In this document: positions 1 to 19,074 of the stretch, one piece after another
Numbering within the stretch: position 1 is the stretch's first letter
Layout: each line of letters begins with the position of its first letter
IMG/VR virus record: IMGVR_UViG_3300045999_006921
Coordinates: 1-23,639 of that record
Reading direction: 5' to 3' (one strand)
DNA length: 23,639 nucleotides
From: a virus
Made by a program: the position numbers and the translations under genes
The notes under the pieces: model-generated
Database searches by the model: none
What the model saw: the letters and a program-made list of their open reading frames with translations, nothing else
Told to the model about the DNA's origin: nothing

Positions 1-520
1 AAGTATCAATCAAATCAAGCATCATTTGAAGAACTTGCTCCGCTGTTTGTTCGTTTGGTCGCATCAAAATTAAGTCACCCACATCCACTCCCAATTTTTC
101 AGCCCAAGCCGCATCAAGCGTATTTTCCGCATCAACATATACAACTTTGCGCCATCCAGATTCCTCCAACTCCTCAATTCGTTCTTTGAGTTTTTTTATC
201 TTATCCGCATCTGATTTGTTCGCCTTTTCTTCAAGTTCTGCCAACTTATGCTTTGCGAATTGATGAGCATCCTGCCACTCTGTTTTTGCCTTCTTCTGTG
301 CTTGGGCTGTGATATCAAGCGCTGATGTTGTTTTGCCTCCTCCTTCGCTTCCAAAGAACTCTGTTGCCTTCCCAATGGGAATGCCTCCATATGATAAATA
401 GTTGGCTCTTGGGCTGGAGAATGGTATCTTGTCCACATATACCATACCAGTTCCCTGCTGAATCAACTCTGATTTGTACTTCTTATTTATCTCTTGCATT
501 GCCTTTTGTAATGGATTCAT
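1..520 (-). CDS. recA: RecA-like recombinase (C-terminus beyond window edge)
   Basis: Strand-exchange ATPase for homologous recombination and recombination-dependent phage replication. The frame is open from an ATG at 520 to the left edge, giving 173 codons of the N-terminal half. Visible motifs are GGIPIGKATEFFG at residues 45-57, a Walker A loop GSEGGGKT at 57-64, and a Walker B-region block with D130, E132 and LGVDV at 143-147, followed by LILMRP and EQ.AEQVL, all arranged as in RecA. Between Walker A and the VVYVDAE strand is a roughly 40-residue charged, probably coiled-coil insert (about 80-121) that bacterial RecA lacks. The ATG overlaps the dUTPase stop as ATGA, with an upstream AGGGAGGA, so the two are translationally coupled. 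The family call is firm; loop L1/L2 and the C-terminus cannot be assessed. Confidence 0.93.
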   Translation of the reverse strand, partial: MNPLQKAMQEINKKYKSELIQQGTGMVYVDKIPFSSPRANYLSYGGIPIGKATEFFGSEGGGKTTSALDITAQAQKKAKTEWQDAHQFAKHKLAELEEKANKSDADKIKKLKERIEELEESGWRKVVYVDAENTLDAAWAEKLGVDVGDLILMRPNEQTAEQVLQMMLDLIDT

Positions 521-939
521 GTTGAGCCAAATCCTCCCTGCCTCAAGTTTTCAACTGGAGCATCATCATCAACTTTGAGATATTTGGCAAATATTCCTTG
601 TGCCACTCTATCTCCCCGCTTAATCTCAAATGGCTCTTCTCCATGATTCACCATCAGCAATTTAATCTCATTGCCAAAATAATCTGAATCAATTGTTGCT
701 GGAGCATTCATCAAAGTTATCATATAACGATATGCCAAGCCACTTCTGGCTCTCAATTGGAGTTCCTCATCATTCTCCATATAGGCTGTTAAGCCAGTTC
801 TTATTACTTTCATTTGTTTAGGCTCAATCAATGCATCTTGAGCGCTGTGAATGTCGTATCCTGCTGAAAAATGTGTTTGCCTTCTTGGAATTAATATTTT
901 GCCCTTGAACTCTGGCATTGCTTGGAATCCTCTTGCCAT
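517..939 (-). CDS. dut: dUTP pyrophosphatase (trimeric dUTPase)
   Basis: Hydrolyses dUTP to dUMP and PPi, keeping uracil out of phage DNA and supplying substrate for thymidylate synthesis (ThyX is in the same operon). The protein is 140 aa, normal for the trimeric family. Motifs from the chosen start: AGYDIHSA (26-33), ARSGLA (64-69), the nucleoside pocket NAPATIDSDYFGNE (78-91) with catalytic D84, GDRVAQGIF (109-117), and the C-terminal arm RQGGFGST (133-140). Motif 3 has Ala where Gly is usual and lacks the common Arg after Tyr, but the catalytic Asp is kept. A GTG three bases upstream is also in frame; the ATG at 939 sits better behind GGGGGAG (5-nt gap). The stop overlaps the recA start. 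Confidence 0.95.
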   Translation of the reverse strand: MARGFQAMPEFKGKILIPRRQTHFSAGYDIHSAQDALIEPKQMKVIRTGLTAYMENDEELQLRARSGLAYRYMITLMNAPATIDSDYFGNEIKLLMVNHGEEPFEIKRGDRVAQGIFAKYLKVDDDAPVENLRQGGFGST

Positions 940-951
940 CACATCTCCCCC

Positions 952-1443
952 TCAATTCATGTTTGATAGATTGGATTCTTGAATCCTTTTGGATAGAACT
1001 TTTTTAACTCCGCTGAAAATATGCTCTGCCATATCCAGTTTGAGCCTCAATTGCTTATAGGCTCTTGTGAATGCAACTTCAATGATTGCCTCTTGAATTG
1101 TCATGTTCTCTGCTGTTTTTGTCTTGTCTTGAATTGTTCCATCAGCAAGCAAATACTTTTGATTGAAAATGGCTGATTTTTGGGCTTTGGCTGTATCGCA
1201 TTCAATCCCTAATATCTCAAGCCCACTTGATGCAAAATACATAAGAAGAGGCAATTTGAGAGTGATTCTATCCAATTCCTCATTGCTCAAATCATTCTTC
1301 TTCTCCAGCGCTTGCTTCATATCTGCCAACAAATCTTCAAGTTCTCTATCATATTTGCTAACAATCTGCTCTACAATCTGCTCTACAATAATTGAGTTCT
1401 GCTCAACATTGCTCTTTAGAGTTCGCAATTTCTCCTCATTCAT
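952..1443 (-). CDS. Conserved phage protein of unknown function in the recombination operon
   Basis: I do not recognise a named domain. The product is about 163 aa, charged and largely helical, with a probable N-terminal coiled coil (Glu/Lys/Asp-rich, about residues 1-60) and a more hydrophobic middle (LKLPLLMYFASSGLEILGIEC). It sits between the RecU-like resolvase and dUTPase/RecA genes, so a recombination-accessory role is possible, but only from context. An ATG at 1455 is also in frame but abuts the GGAGG with no spacing; the ATG at 1443 has a 12-nt gap and overlaps the resolvase stop, so it is preferred. A 12-bp direct repeat in the gene makes the peptide repeat IVEQIVEQIV. Confidence 0.8.
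   Translation of the reverse strand: MNEEKLRTLKSNVEQNSIIVEQIVEQIVSKYDRELEDLLADMKQALEKKNDLSNEELDRITLKLPLLMYFASSGLEILGIECDTAKAQKSAIFNQKYLLADGTIQDKTKTAENMTIQEAIIEVAFTRAYKQLRLKLDMAEHIFSGVKKVLSKRIQESNLSNMN
1361..1389. repeat. 12-bp tandem repeat, about 2.4 copies, inside a coding gene
   Basis: The unit acaatctgctct occurs twice head to tail (1361-1372 and 1373-1384), followed by a partial acaat. It is in frame and encodes VEQI repeats in a predicted coiled coil, so it is probably a replication-slippage expansion rather than a regulatory site. Confidence 0.85.
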
Positions 1444-1936
1444 AAAATGGCTCATCCTCCATGCTTAACTCCTGCAACAATTTCAATGCATCATATTTAT
1501 ATCTTGTTCGCTTCATCTGTGAATCCACTCTCACTCCAAAGGCTTTGGAATAGTCAAGATTGATGGATGCCAGCCCATTGAGCCGCATCTGCTCAATATC
1601 CTTGATGTTCATGAAATATGTTTGAGGCTCATCTTCAATTCCTTCCAATCTGAAGTTGAGAACTGCTCCAGCCACAACTCCATATATCTTGGATTTTTGG
1701 AGCAATCCAGAATGTTGTTTGTGGCTCAAGGCTGATAATGGTATGGAATCGCCTTGATATGATTTGCATTCAAAATAGAATTGATGTGGATATCTATAAG
1801 CCACATAATCTGAAACATTGGCAACATTTTTTCGCATCTGCCAAGCATCAAAAAATCTATCCACTGATACATCATCCAATCCTCTCAAGGATGCCACAAA
1901 ATCCTGCTCAAATCGCTTCCCATTATTTTTTGGCAT
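1436..1936 (-). CDS. RecU-like Holliday junction resolvase / PD-(D/E)XK endonuclease
   Basis: Predicted nuclease that resolves recombination junctions, of the type used in Firmicutes and their phages. The 166-aa protein begins GKRFEQDF (residues 6-13, E10), then a catalytic D43 in NVSDYVAY (40-47) and an E56-C-K58 motif in FYFECKSY (53-60), followed by SIPLSAL, the order seen in RecU. It is somewhat shorter than cellular RecU (about 200 aa). A GAGGAG lies about 7 nt before the ATG. The gene overlaps the DUF3310 gene upstream by 14 bp and the unknown gene downstream by 8 bp, so it is embedded in an operon that ends in RecA. Another small phage PD-(D/E)XK nuclease is the alternative, but RecU fits best. 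Confidence 0.85.
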   Translation of the reverse strand: MPKNNGKRFEQDFVASLRGLDDVSVDRFFDAWQMRKNVANVSDYVAYRYPHQFYFECKSYQGDSIPLSALSHKQHSGLLQKSKIYGVVAGAVLNFRLEGIEDEPQTYFMNIKDIEQMRLNGLASINLDYSKAFGVRVDSQMKRTRYKYDALKLLQELSMEDEPFYE

Positions 1937-2243
1937 GGCTCATCTCCTCAATCAACTTTGTGAGATACCATTGGGCTTTTTGCAAATCCTCCAGCCCATT
2001 CTTATTTTCGTATCTGGAGATATATTTGATGATGTTGCCTTGTAAATATCCAAAGAACTGCTCTCTGCCCATTTTCGCCTTCATATAGTCTATTGTTTCA
2101 ATGCCTCCGCTTGTATAATGAGCGGGATGATTCACCACATCATTTGATGCTTTTACTTTTGTTTTCATATCAAGAACATAGCGCCTTCCATCGTACTCAA
2201 TAACTGTTGGAACATCTTTTCTTTTTTTTATTATCTTAATCAT
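1923..2243 (-). CDS. DUF3310 family protein (phage nucleotide kinase-like)
   Basis: Carries the hallmark DUF3310 sequence: VNHPAHY (37-43), GGIETIDY (46-53), then GYLQGNIIKYISRY (65-78) and NGLEDLQKAQWYL (82-94). The family is widespread in phages. T7 gp1.7, a nucleotide kinase, is usually associated with it, but that activity is not established for this protein. The N-terminal 35 residues (Lys-rich with YDGRRYVLD) lie outside the core. The position directly after ThyX, with an 8-bp overlap, suits a role in nucleotide metabolism. AAGGAG lies about 10 nt before the ATG. The domain call is sure; the biochemical role is tentative. Confidence 0.9.
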   Translation of the reverse strand: MIKIIKKRKDVPTVIEYDGRRYVLDMKTKVKASNDVVNHPAHYTSGGIETIDYMKAKMGREQFFGYLQGNIIKYISRYENKNGLEDLQKAQWYLTKLIEEMSHAKK

Positions 2244-2943
2244 GTTTCAACAACTCCTTCATTGAGATTGGGAATTGTTCTTCTGCAAAATGCTTCACTG
2301 CTTCTGCATAGACTTGAATCTCTTTTTGTGCATCATGGGCAATCCGCTGATTGATAAAATGGGCAACTCCTGCAAGGCTGGCGCTCCAATACCATCTGAC
2401 ATATAAAGCATAGGCTGGAAGGAACAATCTGGCTTGTTCAGCGCAAATTCCCATCTCCATTGCCTTCTCATATGCTTGAACTCCCTTCATAATATGCTCC
2501 TTGAGCGCTCCAGTTGCTTTGGATGCTCCAGCATCATCATAGAGGAACATTGGCAATCCAGAGCCTTGTTTGCTGTTCTCTGGCTTCATTCTCCACTCAT
2601 GAGCCTCTGGAATATGGAACTCTGGCTCTTCTGTTATATAGCGCCTTGAGGATTCATTCCAAGCCACCATATTATCTTGATGTGAACTGCCCACAATATA
2701 CTTCCACCATTGCCTTGCAACAAGCAATGGAGCATATACCTCAAACTGCATGAAACAATGTCTGAATGGGCTTGTATGTTCATTTTGAGCAAGGAACTTG
2801 ATGAGCCTTGCATCCTTCTCACTCATCTCTGTTGATTCCTTATCATATGAAACTCTGGCTGAATTAACAACTCTTAAATCATTGCCCATCACATCAACAA
2901 GCCTCACATATCCCTTATCAAGAACTCTCAACAACTTGCTCAT
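2236..2943 (-). CDS. thyX: Flavin-dependent thymidylate synthase
   Basis: Makes dTMP from dUMP using FAD, NADPH and methylene-tetrahydrofolate. At 235 aa it has normal ThyX length. Visible features are HTSPFRH (56-62), a modified signature beginning VARQWWKY (75-82) and ending WNESSRRYI (95-103), and the C-terminal FINQRIAHDAQKEIQ (196-210) with R200 in the substrate-binding region. The signature departs from the textbook RHR-x7-S spacing: an insert of roughly eight residues (SSHQDNMVA) precedes NESSRRY, a form I associate with some phage and bacterial ThyX branches. GGAGG is 6 nt upstream of the ATG. It overlaps its upstream neighbour by 26 bp and works with dUTPase in the same operon. Confidence 0.95.
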   Translation of the reverse strand: MSKLLRVLDKGYVRLVDVMGNDLRVVNSARVSYDKESTEMSEKDARLIKFLAQNEHTSPFRHCFMQFEVYAPLLVARQWWKYIVGSSHQDNMVAWNESSRRYITEEPEFHIPEAHEWRMKPENSKQGSGLPMFLYDDAGASKATGALKEHIMKGVQAYEKAMEMGICAEQARLFLPAYALYVRWYWSASLAGVAHFINQRIAHDAQKEIQVYAEAVKHFAEEQFPISMKELLKHD

Positions 2944-3214
2944 CTGATTCCTCCGCTCTCAAGATATTCACAAATATTGGAGTATGCTCTCCAACATATG
3001 CTCCAATAACATTATACTCAAAAAACTCAATAGCATCTTGCAAATCCATTCCATCTCTATCCATCAGAATTTTGATGCATCTGCTGGAATCATACACTGC
3101 AACTGCTTTGGATTGAAGATGAGCATATCCGATAATTGCATCATCAAATCCATCAGCCAACAAAATCTCCTCATCAATCCAAGCAATCATTTTTTTGATA
3201 TCATCATTGTTCAT
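2918..3214 (-). CDS. Conserved small phage protein, unknown function
   Basis: A 98-aa acidic protein. The block FDDAIIGYA near residue 23, then AVYDSSRCIKILMDRDGM and FFEYNVIGAYVGEHTP, resembles a hypothetical protein I have seen in many phages and some bacteria; I know no biochemical role for it. It has no membrane segment or signal peptide. GGAGG lies 6 nt before the ATG. The gene overlaps both neighbours (DndC-like and ThyX), so it is co-translated with them. I call it a real gene because of the spacing, ribosome binding site and recognisable conserved motif. Confidence 0.85.
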   Translation of the reverse strand: MNNDDIKKMIAWIDEEILLADGFDDAIIGYAHLQSKAVAVYDSSRCIKILMDRDGMDLQDAIEFFEYNVIGAYVGEHTPIFVNILRAEESDEQVVESS

Positions 3215-4523
3215 TTGTTTCCTCCGTCATAAATTTTTTTTGTTTTCTTAATTCCTTAAATTTTTCAACAATTATTTTATTTTCTTCTGTTGGCTCTTTT
3301 TTGTATTGTTTCAATGCTTTGAGATATTCATTGTGAGCGCTTATTGCAATTTCGCCAAGTTGAAAATCTCCAGAATTATGTTCAAATGAATCATTCAAAT
3401 ATGGCTTATTATTAAAATCTTCAAGCCACTGATTTTTAATAAAATCAATTTCTGATTCTTCTATCAAAGTAACTTTTTCCAGCCCCATATAAGAGCGCAA
3501 AATATTACAATCTTTTTGAGTTTCTAATAATTTATCAAGCAATTTTTTTCTGTACTCAAGAGAATAGCATCCTTTTCCAAATCCAGAGCAAATTCCTCTT
3601 CTTGTGTAACCGCTTCTATTTTGAGGATTTTTTTCTGCATTATCTCCTTCAATCATAAATTTTCTAAACTCTGTCAAAGGCTCAAGCCACTCATATTTTA
3701 TTGCCATTTGCTCTGTGGATTTATCTTTTGATATTGGGGGACAAGTCCAGCATCCAAACCTTGCTGAACAAGCATTATTGTTTTTTGTGGAAGCGCCTTG
3801 AGGATTATTCACTCCGCATTCTCCAGTTGCATCCTTATATAAATTTCTTATATCCCTACTGCTTCCCCAAAGCAATTTTTGAGATAAAATTATCCATATC
3901 TCTTCAGTTGTAAAATCTTGAATGGCTGAATATACTTTTGAAATACTGTGAGAACTCTGCCCAAATCTGCTTTTTTCTCCAACAAATCTCTCATCTTCTG
4001 TATTGTATTTTTCAATAGTTCTTTTTCTTCGTTTGCTTTCATCAAGTCTTGAGCCAACAAACATCAAACAAATATTCTTATCCGATAAAAAATTATTGAT
4101 AGGCTCTATCTTTAATTTGTGCGTACACCATCTCGTTGAAGTGTTTTTTGGAAGTGGATATCCTTTTCCAATTACAAGATAAAAAAAGGATTGAGCATCT
4201 TTTCTCATTACCATATCCACTTCAACTGGCAAATTATTTTGTTTTACATATTGTTTTAATAAATTGACTTGAATATGTGCATACTCATCAAGGATAGGAT
4301 TTTCCATCATAGTATTTGACATAACAACATATAGAGTTCTTTTTTTCTGCTGTTCCTCTGGAAGCATTTTTATTGCTTGTAATGTCAAATTTAGAAGAAC
4401 TGTTGAATCCTTCCCTCCGCTCCATCCAAGAGCAAAATTGCCAACAAAATCATCTGATGCCCAAATATCTGCAATTTCTGCAATTCGTGAAACAATTTTT
4501 TGATTTAATTTTAATTCATCCAT
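3204..4523 (-). CDS. DndC-like ATP-pyrophosphatase (PAPS reductase family)
   Basis: A 439-aa protein of the adenylating sulfurtransferase fold, closest in layout to DndC of DNA phosphorothioation. Numbered from the chosen start: PP-loop SGGKDST (35-41); SNTMMENP (69-76); IGKGYPLP (118-125); RWCTHKLK (131-138); VGSRLDESKRRKR (156-168); and a Cys cluster C236, C252, C258, C261 in an ACSARFGCWTCP context, fitting an Fe-S site; C312 and C319 are further Cys. A longer start at 4631 would bury 116 bp in the upstream gene. The ATG at 4523 has GGAGG 8 nt upstream and an 8-bp overlap, so it is used. Sampled 60-bp lines are 25-30% G+C against 43-50% in flanking genes, suggesting recent acquisition. No dndA, B, D or E lies in the window, so its product could also be a tRNA or nucleotide modification. 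Confidence 0.88.
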   Translation of the reverse strand: MDELKLNQKIVSRIAEIADIWASDDFVGNFALGWSGGKDSTVLLNLTLQAIKMLPEEQQKKRTLYVVMSNTMMENPILDEYAHIQVNLLKQYVKQNNLPVEVDMVMRKDAQSFFYLVIGKGYPLPKNTSTRWCTHKLKIEPINNFLSDKNICLMFVGSRLDESKRRKRTIEKYNTEDERFVGEKSRFGQSSHSISKVYSAIQDFTTEEIWIILSQKLLWGSSRDIRNLYKDATGECGVNNPQGASTKNNNACSARFGCWTCPPISKDKSTEQMAIKYEWLEPLTEFRKFMIEGDNAEKNPQNRSGYTRRGICSGFGKGCYSLEYRKKLLDKLLETQKDCNILRSYMGLEKVTLIEESEIDFIKNQWLEDFNNKPYLNDSFEHNSGDFQLGEIAISAHNEYLKALKQYKKEPTEENKIIVEKFKELRKQKKFMTEETNEQ

Positions 4524-5313
4524 CAATTCCGCCTCCAAACTTTCTGCAATTATTTGTGAATGGGCAATATTTGCAATCCTTCTTATCCTGCTCTGAAACT
4601 TCTGGAACTCTGTTCTCTCTGATATGCTCATTCACTGTTTCAATTCTGGCATATACTCTCTCAATTCGCTCCTCTTGTGATATCTCCACAAGATAGGCTT
4701 TTTTGGCGCAAACATCACGATTCTCATATAAGAAAATCACTTTGGAGATGCCCAATGCCACTGAATATGAAGAGGCTTGATATCTATGCTTTTCCTCTGG
4801 AGCGTTCCTGCCTTGCCATTTGAAACTGGCTTCAGTTTTTATCTCCAAGATATAGTGGATGCCATCAATCTTGAGGATGCCATCACACATGAAACTCAAG
4901 TTTAGAACATCATTGAACAACTTTGTTTCCATGCCCATCTTTTCAATCACTCTTGTTCCATGAGGCTTATGCTCCTCAATGAATGCTCCAACATCAACAA
5001 AATCAACATTGAATCCATGCTCTCTCATGCTTGCAATGTGCTTTTGAATCCGCTCATGCCTATCTGTTCCGCTTTCGTTGATGCCCACCAATCCAGCATC
5101 AGTTGGCTTGCTCAAATCAATATCTGCTCCAGTAACTTCAAAAAACATCCTTCTCATGCATCCACCTAATGAAGATGGCTTGAATGTTCTGGATGGGCTT
5201 CTGGGCTTCTGATTCTTGCTTGTTGCCTCGCTCAATTCATACAAAAAGCGCTCTTCTAATGTTTTTTCTTTTGTTGCATTGTTTATCATTTTTGCCAAGT
5301 TTTTCAATCCCAT
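4516..5313 (-). CDS. Cas4/RecB-like PD-(D/E)XK nuclease with predicted Fe-S cluster
   Basis: Predicted 265-aa DNA exonuclease of the Cas4/AddB-C-terminal type. Visible features: an N-terminal C52 in LGGCMRRMFFE (49-59); H86 in GTDRHERIQ (82-90); D144 in CDGIL; E157-x-K159 in ILEIKTEASFKW (155-166); Q179 in HRYQASSY (177-184); and C-terminal C247, C250 and C256. One upstream and three C-terminal cysteines is the Cas4-type 4Fe-4S arrangement. There is no CRISPR array or cas1/cas2 here, so this is a phage replication or recombination nuclease rather than an adaptation protein. It has a strong start (AGGAGGTG, 7-nt gap) and is the first gene after a family A promoter. Its stop overlaps the DndC-like start. 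Confidence 0.9.
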   Translation of the reverse strand: MGLKNLAKMINNATKEKTLEERFLYELSEATSKNQKPRSPSRTFKPSSLGGCMRRMFFEVTGADIDLSKPTDAGLVGINESGTDRHERIQKHIASMREHGFNVDFVDVGAFIEEHKPHGTRVIEKMGMETKLFNDVLNLSFMCDGILKIDGIHYILEIKTEASFKWQGRNAPEEKHRYQASSYSVALGISKVIFLYENRDVCAKKAYLVEISQEERIERVYARIETVNEHIRENRVPEVSEQDKKDCKYCPFTNNCRKFGGGIDG

Positions 5314-5336
5314 TTGGATTCACCTCCTCTCTTTAG

Positions 5337-5366
5337 ATAATACAAAAAAGCCATCCAGATTGTAAA
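5337..5366 (-). promoter_or_regulatory. Predicted family A promoter for the nuclease-to-recA operon
   Basis: On the minus strand TTTACA (5361-5366) is followed after 18 nt by TATTAT (5337-5342), then CT, AGGAGGTG and the nuclease ATG. The same layout recurs at 8783-8811, 12572-12601 and 14428-14457. Here the -35 lies in the loop of the preceding terminator hairpin. Confidence 0.7.
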
Positions 5367-5376
5367 CTGGAAGGCT
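5344..5376 (-). terminator. Predicted rho-independent terminator after the 47-aa gene
   Basis: Minus-strand stem AGCCTTCCAG / CTGGATGGCT (5367-5376 with 5349-5358, one A-A mismatch), 8-nt loop, then a run of six T. It starts 7 bp after the 47-aa gene stop and physically overlaps the next promoter. Confidence 0.75.
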
Positions 5377-5383
5377 CTTGTTC

Positions 5384-5527
5384 TTAATGTTTTGGCAATG
5401 TTACTTGCATTCCCTCATCATATGCCCAGTGATAAAAAGTCACTGTGTCAGTTGTTTCTTTTGCCACATACCAATTAATTGGTCGATATCCCGCTTTTGC
5501 TAAAATCTTTGCATAAAATGTTTCCAT
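5384..5527 (-). CDS. Small phage protein (47 aa), unknown function
   Basis: A 47-codon frame starting METFYAKILAKAGYRP and ending EGMQVTLPKH, with many aromatic residues (Trp and Tyr in NWYVAKE and FYHWAYDEG). No known family recognised. It has a clear start (GGAGG, 8-nt gap) and its own predicted promoter (5577-5605) and terminator (5344-5376), making a single-gene transcription unit between the DNA polymerase and nuclease operons. Small proteins expressed alone this way in phages are often host-takeover factors; that is inference only. Confidence 0.75.
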   Translation of the reverse strand: METFYAKILAKAGYRPINWYVAKETTDTVTFYHWAYDEGMQVTLPKH

Positions 5528-5571
5528 TGTTTTTGCCTCCAGTTTGTTTGAGTTTTTGATTCCTTGCCTTG

Positions 5572-5622
5572 AGAAAAGAATATCACAATATTATCCACAT
5601 TGCAAGAGGCAATTTGAAAAAA
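5572..5622. repeat. 51-bp duplicated promoter region, copy 1
   Basis: Matches 16803-16853 with a single difference (C for T at 5596). Both copies lie just after a terminator and upstream of a small gene. The repeat holds the family B promoter plus two small dyads: ATTGC-n5-GCAAT over the -35 and AATAT-n4-ATATT near the -10. Confidence 0.92.
5577..5605 (-). promoter_or_regulatory. Predicted family B promoter for the 47-aa gene
   Basis: Minus strand TTGCAA (5600-5605), 17-nt spacer, TATTCT (5577-5582) preceded by TGA, i.e. an extended -10. Conserved in the second copy at 16808-16836. The leader to the start codon is about 45 nt. Confidence 0.7.
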
Positions 5623-5634
5623 GTTTTTTGATGC

Positions 5635-5657
5635 AAAAAAGAGCCATTGCTGGCTCT
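5635..5657 (-). terminator. Predicted rho-independent terminator after polA
   Basis: Perfect 7-bp stem AGAGCCA / TGGCTCT closed by a GCAA tetraloop, followed by TTTTTT on the minus strand, 6 bp beyond the polymerase stop. Confidence 0.9.
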
Positions 5658-5663
5658 CCTTGT

Positions 5664-7874
5664 TTATGCATTCCATTTATCAGATATGGCAACATCAACT
5701 TTCATTGGAACTTTGATTCTGGCTCTTGCAACTTCAATCATTAACTCCTGCATTCGCTCTGATGCTTCCTGCTGATGCTCTGATGGGCATTCCACAATAA
5801 TCTCATCATGAACTGTTAAGATGATGTTTGCATTCCATATCTTCATCTGTTCATCTTTAGCAATTGCCAGCATTGCAAGTTTTGTGATATCTGCTGATGA
5901 GCCTTGAATAACACTGTTCACGCTTTGGCGCTCTGCCTCTGCAATCTTGCCTCCATTATCAATCACTCTCACTGCATATTGCCTTTGGATGCCAGCCTTC
6001 ACTTGCTCCTTCTCATCCCATCTGCAATTGTTCAGTTGCAATGTAAAATAATCTGCTTCAGCATCCTGCAAAGATTGCCCATTGAAGCGCTCAAATTGAT
6101 ATTGAGGCAATTGAATATCTGGAAGCCTCCGCTTCCTTCCATACGCTGTTTGGACAAATCCAAAGCGCTTTGCATTGTGCTTTGTTCTGTGGATGTATTG
6201 AGCGACTTTTTCAAAGGAATCAAAAAACATATCTATAATTCGCTTGGCTTCATTCTTGTTGATATTCAATTGCTCTGCAATGGCATTTGCTCCTCTTCCA
6301 TACATCAATCCAAGAACAACGCTTTTCATGCTGTTCCGCATCTTCTTCCCTTCATCATTCTTGCTTCCGTCTGGATGGAACTCTTTGCAATGCTCATATG
6401 GCTTTTTATACACTTCTGAAGCAATCCATGAATATAAATCTTTGCCAGTTGCGTATGCCTCAATCATCTTATCATCATCTGCAACATGCGCCAATACTCT
6501 TGGCTCTTGCTGTGAATAATCGCAACTGATAAAAACATTGCCATCTCCAGCAACAAACATTTTTCTGATGTTCTTATCATGTGCTGGAATGTTCTGCAAG
6601 TTTGGCTCACTTGAACTAAATCTGCCAGTTTTTGCGCCAAACTGATTGAATGATGCATGAATCCTGCCAGTTTGCTCATTCACTACTTTTGGCAATTTCT
6701 CAATATAAGTGGATAACAATTTGGATAATTCTCTGTACTTGAGCAAAGATTTGAAGAACTGTCCGCATTTTTTATGATTTGCGAATACTTCAAGAATCTC
6801 CGCTCCAGTTCCTCTTGGCTTTTCTTTATCAACTGGCTGGAAGCCCATCACATCATAGATGATGATTGATAATTGCAATGGGCTTCCCAGATTCACTGGA
6901 GTTGATAATTTGGCTCTTTTTTCAGCCTCCAAGCCACTCAAATCAAGTTTAGATACGATATCAAGGCAATCTTGTTTTATATGCTCAATTTGCCCATTAT
7001 AATCAATTGCCAACTGTTCCGCATATGGAACATCAAGAAGAACTCCACAATCCTCAATATCTGCAATCACATCAAGCAATGGAACTTCTGTTTGATGGAA
7101 GAACTCTGCCGCATCTTGCAATCCTCTTGAGATGCATTCATCCTTATTTGGATTCAAGAATGGCTCTTGAAACTGGTATAATTCAAATGTTTTCAGCGCA
7201 TCTCCTGCCGCATAGAGATAAGCCAAATCAATTGGAACATGATTGAATCCCATATCCTCAAAATAATCTGAATAGTTGCCTCCAGCATCAGCGCCTTCAA
7301 CATACTTTGCATGGAGTGTTTTGAGTTTGTGAGGCTCATTTTCGTTGAGATAATTTCCAGCCAGTGATGTATCAAAATGAGCCTTGATTCTGATGCCCAT
7401 AGAATGCCTCAAGAATCTTATATCAAACTTGGCATTGTGCAAAATCCACTTGATGCCATCCAATGAGTTCAATGCATCAGCGACAACTTGAACTGGAATT
7501 TGCTCTGGAATCAGCGCTCCATTGGAATCAATGTGCCTCAATGGGATATATACTGCCTTTTCATTTGGAGTGAATAGGCAAATTCCAACAACTTCATTGC
7601 CCATTGGATTCAATCCAGTTGTTTCAGTATCAATTGAAGCAATGCCATTCTTCTTGATTGATTCAATGTATTGAAGGAACTCATCTGTTGATTGAATGCA
7701 TCTGAACTTGTTGGCTTGTCGCAACAACTGTTCATCCATGCTGGCTTGTTGGATGATGCCTTGAATCTTGTTTGCTTTTCGCTTCTCTGTTGATACTGTT
7801 TTCTTTGGCTTTGTTGTTGCCTTCTTTGCAATCGAATCAATCACATCTGTTGTTGCTCTTACTTCTGGAATCAT
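5664..7874 (-). CDS. polA: DNA polymerase I-like replicative polymerase (family A)
   Basis: Phage replicative DNA polymerase, 736 aa, with a proofreading and a polymerase domain but no 5'-3' exonuclease domain, as usual for phage family A enzymes. Exonuclease motifs: D82-T-E84 in ASIDTETTG, N147 and D151 in LHNAKFD, Y221/D225 in YAAGD. The proofreading site therefore looks intact. Polymerase motifs: A at D452 in CDYSQQEPR (451-459), B with R513, K517, Y525-G526, and C at H689-D690-E691. Motif A has Gln-Glu-Pro in place of the bacterial Ile-Glu-Leu. An ATG 39 bases upstream exists, but the one at 7874 follows GGGGAGG by 7 nt and is used. A strong hairpin precedes the gene and a terminator follows. 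Confidence 0.97.
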   Translation of the reverse strand: MIPEVRATTDVIDSIAKKATTKPKKTVSTEKRKANKIQGIIQQASMDEQLLRQANKFRCIQSTDEFLQYIESIKKNGIASIDTETTGLNPMGNEVVGICLFTPNEKAVYIPLRHIDSNGALIPEQIPVQVVADALNSLDGIKWILHNAKFDIRFLRHSMGIRIKAHFDTSLAGNYLNENEPHKLKTLHAKYVEGADAGGNYSDYFEDMGFNHVPIDLAYLYAAGDALKTFELYQFQEPFLNPNKDECISRGLQDAAEFFHQTEVPLLDVIADIEDCGVLLDVPYAEQLAIDYNGQIEHIKQDCLDIVSKLDLSGLEAEKRAKLSTPVNLGSPLQLSIIIYDVMGFQPVDKEKPRGTGAEILEVFANHKKCGQFFKSLLKYRELSKLLSTYIEKLPKVVNEQTGRIHASFNQFGAKTGRFSSSEPNLQNIPAHDKNIRKMFVAGDGNVFISCDYSQQEPRVLAHVADDDKMIEAYATGKDLYSWIASEVYKKPYEHCKEFHPDGSKNDEGKKMRNSMKSVVLGLMYGRGANAIAEQLNINKNEAKRIIDMFFDSFEKVAQYIHRTKHNAKRFGFVQTAYGRKRRLPDIQLPQYQFERFNGQSLQDAEADYFTLQLNNCRWDEKEQVKAGIQRQYAVRVIDNGGKIAEAERQSVNSVIQGSSADITKLAMLAIAKDEQMKIWNANIILTVHDEIIVECPSEHQQEASERMQELMIEVARARIKVPMKVDVAISDKWNA

Positions 7875-7898
7875 GTTGAATCCTCCCCATAGTGTGCA

Positions 7899-7925
7899 AA
7901 TGCCCATCAGCATTTGATGGGCATT
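7899..7925 (-). promoter_or_regulatory. Perfect 11-bp hairpin in the SSB-polA gap
   Basis: AATGCCCATCA and TGATGGGCATT (minus strand) pair perfectly around a 5-nt loop. The hairpin ends about 24 nt before the polA ATG and about 13 nt before its GGAGG. No T run follows, so it is not a classic terminator. Attenuation, RNase processing or a protein-binding translational operator are candidates. Confidence 0.7.
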
Positions 7926-18210: not shown

Positions 18211-19062
18211 TCACTCTCCTTTATAAGATGATAAAAATGCAGGAATATCAGAATATATTTTGATGGCTCTTGCTCCCTGCAATCCGCTCATCTCTACAAT
18301 ATTTATGCCAGTTTTGTTGATTCTATATCCTTTTGTTTTTGCATAGCCACTCCATGATAGGAATGTAGATGCATTCACAAAAAATTGTTCCCTTACAACT
18401 GGCTTCTTGTTTCTCAAATCTATATCCATATATATTTCAGATGCCCAATGCCTTCTGTGAGTATGCTCCCCCCAAATCACATCAACTCTGAATTCTTCGC
18501 CTTTTTTCTGCAACTTTGCCAAGTTCAGATTGTTGCCAGTTGAGCCAGAGATATGATGCAAAAAATGAGTATATGCATTTTTGCCCACTGAAAATTGCAA
18601 GATTGCCATATCGCCAAAATAGCGTATATTTAGCATATCACATAGCCACTCCATAGGAGATATATCATTGAACTCTTGACTTCTTGTGCCATCATGATTG
18701 CCATCAATTTTTCCAATGATTCTATCTTTGATAGGCTCAAGATATTGGAGCAATCCCTTCTTCACAAGTTTCCCATTTTCAAACTTGCCTTTGATTTGCT
18801 CTTTTGGTGTCATATCCTCTTCAAATTGGGATGATTTTGAGCCTTTGTTGGCATGATTGATTGAATCGCCTCCCAAGAATACAAAAAAGTTTGGAATGCT
18901 CTGAATCACTTGGATTGTTGCCTCAAATCCTTCTGCATCAAATCCCTTATGCCCAACATGAATATCGCTCAAATCAGTGAAAAAAACTTGCTCCGCATCT
19001 GCTCTTATATAAGTATAATGCCCAGCCAAATCAGATTCTAATTTTTTGATATTATCATACAT
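18211..19062 (-). CDS. Metallophosphoesterase (calcineurin-like)
   Basis: Predicted metal-dependent phosphodiesterase or phosphatase, 283 aa. All five family motifs are intact: D33-x-H35 in LSDIHVGH (31-38), G65-D66 in FLGGDSINH (62-70), N122-H123-D124 in DGNHDG, H170 in HFLHH, and H200-x-H202 in WGEHTHRRH. A long variable region (70-115) lies between the second and third motifs. GTG and ATG codons at 19071 and 19068 are too close to AAGGAG; ATG at 19062 (8 nt away) is preferred. It lies between Tal and the holin, where a tail fibre or baseplate gene is usual, so it is either a virion-associated enzyme or an inserted accessory gene. The substrate (DNA, nucleotide or wall polymer) cannot be told. 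Confidence 0.9.
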   Translation of the reverse strand: MYDNIKKLESDLAGHYTYIRADAEQVFFTDLSDIHVGHKGFDAEGFEATIQVIQSIPNFFVFLGGDSINHANKGSKSSQFEEDMTPKEQIKGKFENGKLVKKGLLQYLEPIKDRIIGKIDGNHDGTRSQEFNDISPMEWLCDMLNIRYFGDMAILQFSVGKNAYTHFLHHISGSTGNNLNLAKLQKKGEEFRVDVIWGEHTHRRHWASEIYMDIDLRNKKPVVREQFFVNASTFLSWSGYAKTKGYRINKTGINIVEMSGLQGARAIKIYSDIPAFLSSYKGE

Positions 19063-19074
19063 TATCATCACTCC

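Follow-up and report, generated by a model that had tools for sequence, protein, structure and literature searches.

The stretch of DNA analysed here (hereafter the window) is 23,639 bases long and makes up the entire public record IMGVR_UViG_3300045999_006921, a partial tailed-phage genome with tail and lysis genes towards the high coordinates and a replication operon on the minus strand. Within this operon lies a gene for a DndC-like protein (Table 1). A longer version of its frame opens at ATG 4631, but ATG 4523 is the likely translation start, since TTTGGAGGCGGAATTG, with a GGAGG ribosome-binding site, is found directly upstream of it, whereas no Shine-Dalgarno site precedes ATG 4631 (both read from the sequence). 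The gene is tightly packed in the operon, as it overlaps the Cas4-like ORF by 8 nt at its start and the phrog_13182 ORF by 11 nt at its stop; the reading frame and the Cas4-like overlap claimed in an earlier prediction, made from the sequence alone (hereafter the original prediction), were thus confirmed. Promoter and terminator scans of the window stayed at chance level, and no tRNA or Rfam matches were found in it. Between the tail genes and the holin, an ORF of 286 aa (18211–19071, minus strand) displays motifs of calcineurin-like phosphoesterases recognisable by eye (DLSDIHVGH, GGDS, GNHDG and GEHTH), with no Pfam match at E 0.01.

Table 1. Features of the window. Motif coordinates were computed from the start at 4523; residue numbers are those of the 439-aa protein, and DndC cysteines are numbered as in E. 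coli B7A DndC (PMC12193691).
Feature	Coordinates	Strand	Evidence
dUTPase	517..942	-	TIGR00576, 121 bits
Holliday-junction resolvase, Dp-1 gp12 orthologue	1436..1936	-	phrog_843; Dp-1 gp12, E 4e-9
DUF3310 protein, inserted-cassette member	1923..2243	-	PF11753, 89.8 bits
ThyX thymidylate synthase, inserted-cassette member	2236..2943	-	TIGR02170, 121.7 bits, above cut-off
phrog_13182 protein, 98 aa, inserted-cassette member	2918..3214	-	phrog_13182, 105.6 bits
DndC-like [4Fe-4S] PP-loop sulfurtransferase gene (predicted), 439 aa	3204..4523	-	TIGR03183, PF01507, PADLOC DndC, tree, AlphaFold2
Cys cluster C...FGCWTC, residues 252-261 (C252 = Cys273, C258 = Cys280, C261 = Cys283)	3741..3770	-	15/15 clade members
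GEC, residues 234-236 (C236 = Cys262, first of the DndC-specific pair)	3816..3824	-	alignment
RWCT, residues 131-134 (C133 = Cys146, Fe-S ligand)	4122..4133	-	alignment, tree set
PP-loop SGGKDS, residues 35-40	4404..4421	-	alignment; 14/14 clade members spanning the region
Cas4-like PD-(D/E)XK nuclease, Dp-1 gp11 orthologue	4516..5313	-	phrog_1706, 170 bits; 37% identity to Dp-1 gp11
DNA polymerase I, Dp-1 gp71 orthologue	5664..7913	-	PF00476; 39.6% identity to Dp-1

From helicase to UvsX, the operon is collinear with that of Streptococcus phage Dp-1 (helicase, two small genes, DnaC, DnaB, primase, sigma factor, SSB, PolA, Cas4-like nuclease, Holliday-junction resolvase, gp13, UvsX), which, together with profile annotation, bears out the replication-operon context originally proposed. 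In Dp-1, however, the Cas4-like gene gp11 and the resolvase gene gp12 overlap with no DndC/ThyX cassette between them, and a queuosine/7-deazaguanine gene set follows PolA; in the window the DndC-like, phrog_13182, ThyX and DUF3310 genes occupy 2,580 bases between the Cas4-like and resolvase genes. A scan for the Cas4-like gene yielded 80 related loci (L145–L224), of which 71 showed both flanking genes: the gap was at most 50 bases in 42 and at most 300 in 56 of them, and it never exceeded 2,082. Within the stretch examined, none of the 80 carried the window-type DndC, ThyX or phrog_13182. Nucleic-acid modification genes are frequent in this phage group: the replication region of 31 of the 80 Cas4 neighbourhoods contained queuosine/7-deazaguanine-type genes (Tgt/DpdA-like, QueC, QueD, QueE, GTP cyclohydrolase). 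One Dp-1-like relative (L169:19503-20411) encodes a 302-aa PAPS-reductase-type PP-loop protein with a weak match of 25 bits to the DndC profile. Separately, DnaN lies immediately upstream of the Cas4-like gene in the majority of Dp-1-like relatives, whereas the window has none at 5313–5664 and passes directly from PolA to the Cas4-like gene.

The DndC-like gene had the lowest G+C content (31.7%) and the lowest GC3 (22.0%) of the 26 genes in the window, against 38.6 ± 2.4% (z = −2.9) and 36.6 ± 4.8% (z = −3.0), respectively, in the remaining genes, and its codon usage was the most deviant among genes of at least 150 codons. The original prediction had therefore judged the direction of the difference correctly and overstated its size: single 60-nt lines of the gene range from 22 to 47% G+C, and neighbouring genes have 36–43%, not 43–50%. 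Because of this odd composition and the absence from the same place in the 80 relatives, acquisition as an accessory cassette, and with it the late arrival suggested earlier, is supported.

Judged from its sequence, the product is a DndC-type protein, not CysH, TtcA or SspD, though an atypical one. It scored 221.6 bits against TIGR03183, 248 bits against the PADLOC DndC profile and 34 bits against PF01507, compared with 34 bits for SspD and for BrxP, 20 for CysD and 13.5 for CysH. The layout of PP-loop, RWCT and cysteine cluster claimed for it was upheld by profiles, alignment and phylogeny, and is shared with the DndC of Dnd systems (TIGR03183; E. coli B7A and Salmonella), the Salmonella protein of locus L005 having its cysteines at exactly the E. 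coli B7A positions (146, 262, 273, 280 and 283). All four Fe-S cysteines (146, 273, 280 and 283) are present in the window protein. So is the C262/C273 pair, a conserved feature of DndC that APS reductase lacks (PMC12193691) and that we found missing from CysH, TtcA and the viral PAPS reductases of the type seen in Pseudomonas phage Dobby. In our reading it is the DndC-specific dyad that PMC10853773 and PMC12839542 mention in passages without residue numbers; BrxP is reported to lack the dyad (PMC12839542). The protein is called atypical because it falls short of the curated TIGR03183 cut-off of 290 bits, lacks the C-terminal region for DndD docking and belongs to a separate clade.

SspD and BrxP are enzymes of the PAPS-reductase type that serve other phosphorothioation systems (Ssp and BREX type 4, respectively). 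The Dobby-type proteins share the PF01507 PP-loop, RWCT and CxxC, are likewise found in early or accessory regions of phages, and often lie, in viruses as in bacteria, near a DNA methyltransferase. An AlphaFold2 model of the window protein (mean pLDDT 85.7, 35 aligned homologues) gave, in Foldseek searches of the PDB, the [4Fe-4S] tRNA thiolase NcsA as best match (E 2.9e-6), followed by CysH (E 9.8e-6) and, at lower rank, CysD, TtuA and LarE. Sequence searches of the PDB returned only weak PP-loop and kinase matches, and DndC was among the matches of neither search. The modelled fold thus assigns the protein to the PP-loop sulfur family without separating the members of that family.

Relatives were collected by scanning IMG/VR, GTDB genomes and plasmids with alignments as queries, which proved necessary: single-sequence viral scans with the DndC-like protein and with the DNA polymerase of the window gave no matches. 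A 12-kb megablast query likewise matched no phage record, and among 50,697 phage records there was no relative above 33% identity. In a maximum-likelihood tree the window protein and 14 others formed a 15-member clade (support 99/98), with the DndD-linked DndC proteins on the opposite side of one branch, also at 99/98. The Dobby-type PAPS reductases fell on a different branch and TtcA was a distant outgroup, so that the protein groups with DndC and not with PAPS reductases or tRNA thiolases, its likeness to NcsA being confined to the fold.

Thirteen of the 15 members come from viral records (Bacillota phages), one from a 53-kb phage-plasmid of Halobacillus litoralis SaN21-8 with terminase and capsid genes and one from a contig of Lysinibacillus capsici PB300; together the related copies form a phage-borne family spread across very different phages. 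Identity to the window protein is only 28–40%, yet every one of the 15 members has retained the five DndC cysteines. Clade proteins are shorter than the DndC of Dnd systems (most 386–440 aa versus about 530), and in the alignment homology stops before residues 433–482 and the C-terminal helix, the parts of DndC reported to dock DndD (PMC12193691). We considered this loss as proof of independence from DndD and rejected it, given three short DndC proteins (L018, L019 and L027) that also lack the region and yet are linked to DndD; the loss may therefore be counted as supportive evidence only.

Profile searches agreed with the claim that no desulfurase, DndB, DndD or DndE gene accompanies the DndC-like gene, within a record that is a fragment of its genome and with profiles that may miss diverged proteins: home-made DndB, DndD and DndE profiles found no match in the window, nor did DndE and cysteine-desulfurase profiles across all 23,639 bases. 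The same held in the clade, with DndD in 0/14 records, DndE above cut-off in 0/15 including the window (one 16-bit match was at chance level) and a cysteine desulfurase in none of the phage records. Among 261 genomes of the Lysinibacillus order, seven carried a canonical DndC, each with a DndE a few kb away (six above the family cut-off, one just under it); the sole phage-type DndC, which represents one clade member, occurred in a genome with no DndE or DndD anywhere. All ORFs of 14 phages were clustered, taking 12 records that are complete or almost so, 21 kb of another and the window itself. The DndC-like family alone ran through all 14, no other family occurring in more than eight, and so no constant phage-encoded partner emerged from this comparison of neighbours. 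Viral records with DndC homologues, some of them short or fragments, contained DndD in 5 of 32 cases. Matches labelled as faecal phage (L002–L004) were rejected as phage parallels, being bacterial-type Dnd clusters in which dndC lies with dndB and/or dndD, or in a Dpt-like mobile element.

From these observations we tentatively infer an active accessory sulfurtransferase of the DndC type, with a [4Fe-4S] cluster, that would draw on host sulfur and act on nucleic acid, most likely phage DNA. A host cysteine desulfurase of the IscS/SufS type would load sulfur onto the DndC-type cysteines and cluster, in line with the replacement of DndA by IscS in known systems (PMC10853773); the PP-loop would adenylate the target, and sulfur would pass to nucleic acid synthesised while the phage replicates, most probably the phage's own DNA, which might then escape host nucleases. 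The gene was, on this reading, gained in one cassette together with phrog_13182, ThyX and DUF3310 and is translated within the replication operon. DNA is favoured as the target because the active site is of the DndC type and the surrounding genes make and repair DNA. In Streptomyces lividans, however, phosphorothioation depends on each of DndA, C, D and E (PMC2653506). With DndD and DndE essential there, modification of DNA by DndC alone is without precedent, and would need a new way of presenting DNA; otherwise RNA or a nucleotide would be the target. Protection of phage DNA by phosphorothioation, as originally proposed, was for this reason not confirmed, DndD and DndE being absent here. The TIGR03183 score below cut-off, the tRNA thiolase NcsA as best fold match (slightly ahead of CysH) and the lack of DndC among the PDB matches also count against the favoured explanation, and the window being a fragment, Dnd partners may lie elsewhere in the same phage.

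PP-loop thiolases such as TtcA, NcsA and TtuA work without DndD or DndE. Thiolation of RNA (e.g. tRNA) or of a nucleotide or base, for which a host desulfurase would suffice and which might aid phage translation or evasion of tRNA-cutting defences, is the strongest competitor, albeit a rather unlikely one. NcsA as the nearest solved fold, the lack of a conserved partner across phages and the nearby nucleotide genes ThyX and dUTPase would all fit it, but the sequence and the C262/C273 pair are of the DndC type, and TtcA lacks the pair and is distant in the tree. We regard as distinctly unlikely that the protein cooperates with Dnd, Ssp or BREX-4 partners of the host, supplying or redirecting modification so that phage DNA passes as self. 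Its complete active site and its putative specificity-loop positions, unlike those of Dnd-system DndC, speak for this; against it stand the DndD-docking region missing throughout the clade (though also from the three short DndD-linked proteins) and the rarity of Dnd in the one host order surveyed (7/261 genomes), with none in the genome where the phage-type gene sits. Slightly less probable still is a decoy or inhibitor, that is, an inactive DndC mimic titrating host DndD or IscS against sulfur-based defence. The single-gene state and missing C-terminus could fit a dominant negative, but a decoy would have no need of the five cysteines and PP-loop kept over deep divergence, the part that was lost is the very surface that binds DndD, and one host genome is without Dnd; this idea, also raised originally, was accordingly weakened. 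An assimilatory PAPS/APS reductase acting as an auxiliary metabolic gene, the usual label for PF01507 matches in viromes, is hardly tenable: the PF01507 score, PHROG matches named PAPS reductase and CysH among the best fold matches speak for it, but the CysH signature is missing (a score far below the profile cut-off of 165 bits, and none of the C-terminal ECGLH in which E. coli CysH ends), the C262/C273 pair is present and the protein groups with DndC.

Returning to the sulfurtransferase reading, known Dnd chemistry takes at least four proteins, and here a single DndC-type gene stands in a phage. In the literature we searched, no phage was reported to encode phosphorothioation or any other modification of its DNA with sulfur, and no lone phage DndC was linked to a tested function. 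The family suggests that one protein might modify nucleic acid with sulfur, and being monophyletic, keeping its active site and lacking a constant partner, it makes the question of whether DndC can act alone directly testable. A bolder version, which we hold to be doubtful, is that one phage relative of DndC, freed from DndD and DndE, would put sulfur into the backbone or bases of replicating phage DNA using housekeeping sulfur of the host, as a one-gene system across unrelated Bacillota phages. The findings also suggest that some virome genes labelled cysH and assigned to sulfur metabolism may be nucleic-acid sulfurtransferases.

Lone DndC genes on other branches occupy replication modules too, which, like the frequent modification genes of the Dp-1-like relatives, speaks for the favoured explanation. 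On a 52.8-kb viral contig (L040:8747-11983), a dUTPase, an N6/N4 methylase fragment, a DndC of 418 aa and ThyX are consecutive; in L012:9986-11026 a lone DndC directly follows a DNA polymerase-like ORF and is itself followed by a small nuclease-looking ORF; and in the cultured Sinorhizobium phage AP-20-A the predicted DndC p002 (PHROG_424) is numbered beside the DNA polymerase I p003 (PMC13299392). The latter, and a gene of the S. meliloti prophage phiT073-031, are predicted single phage-borne DndC-like genes known from published descriptions. L012, L031 and L024 make up a second viral DndC lineage (at most 346 aa), whose proteins differ little between the three records. Other lone DndC genes (L036:9358-10554 and L016:9917-11533) lie not with replication genes but within or next to what look like phage structural genes. 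Finally, two virus-classed contigs carry small dnd clusters (L018:6237-11364 and L019:4717-9687), each composed of a short DndC, DndD and a third protein of ~510 aa that seems to resemble DndE at its start.
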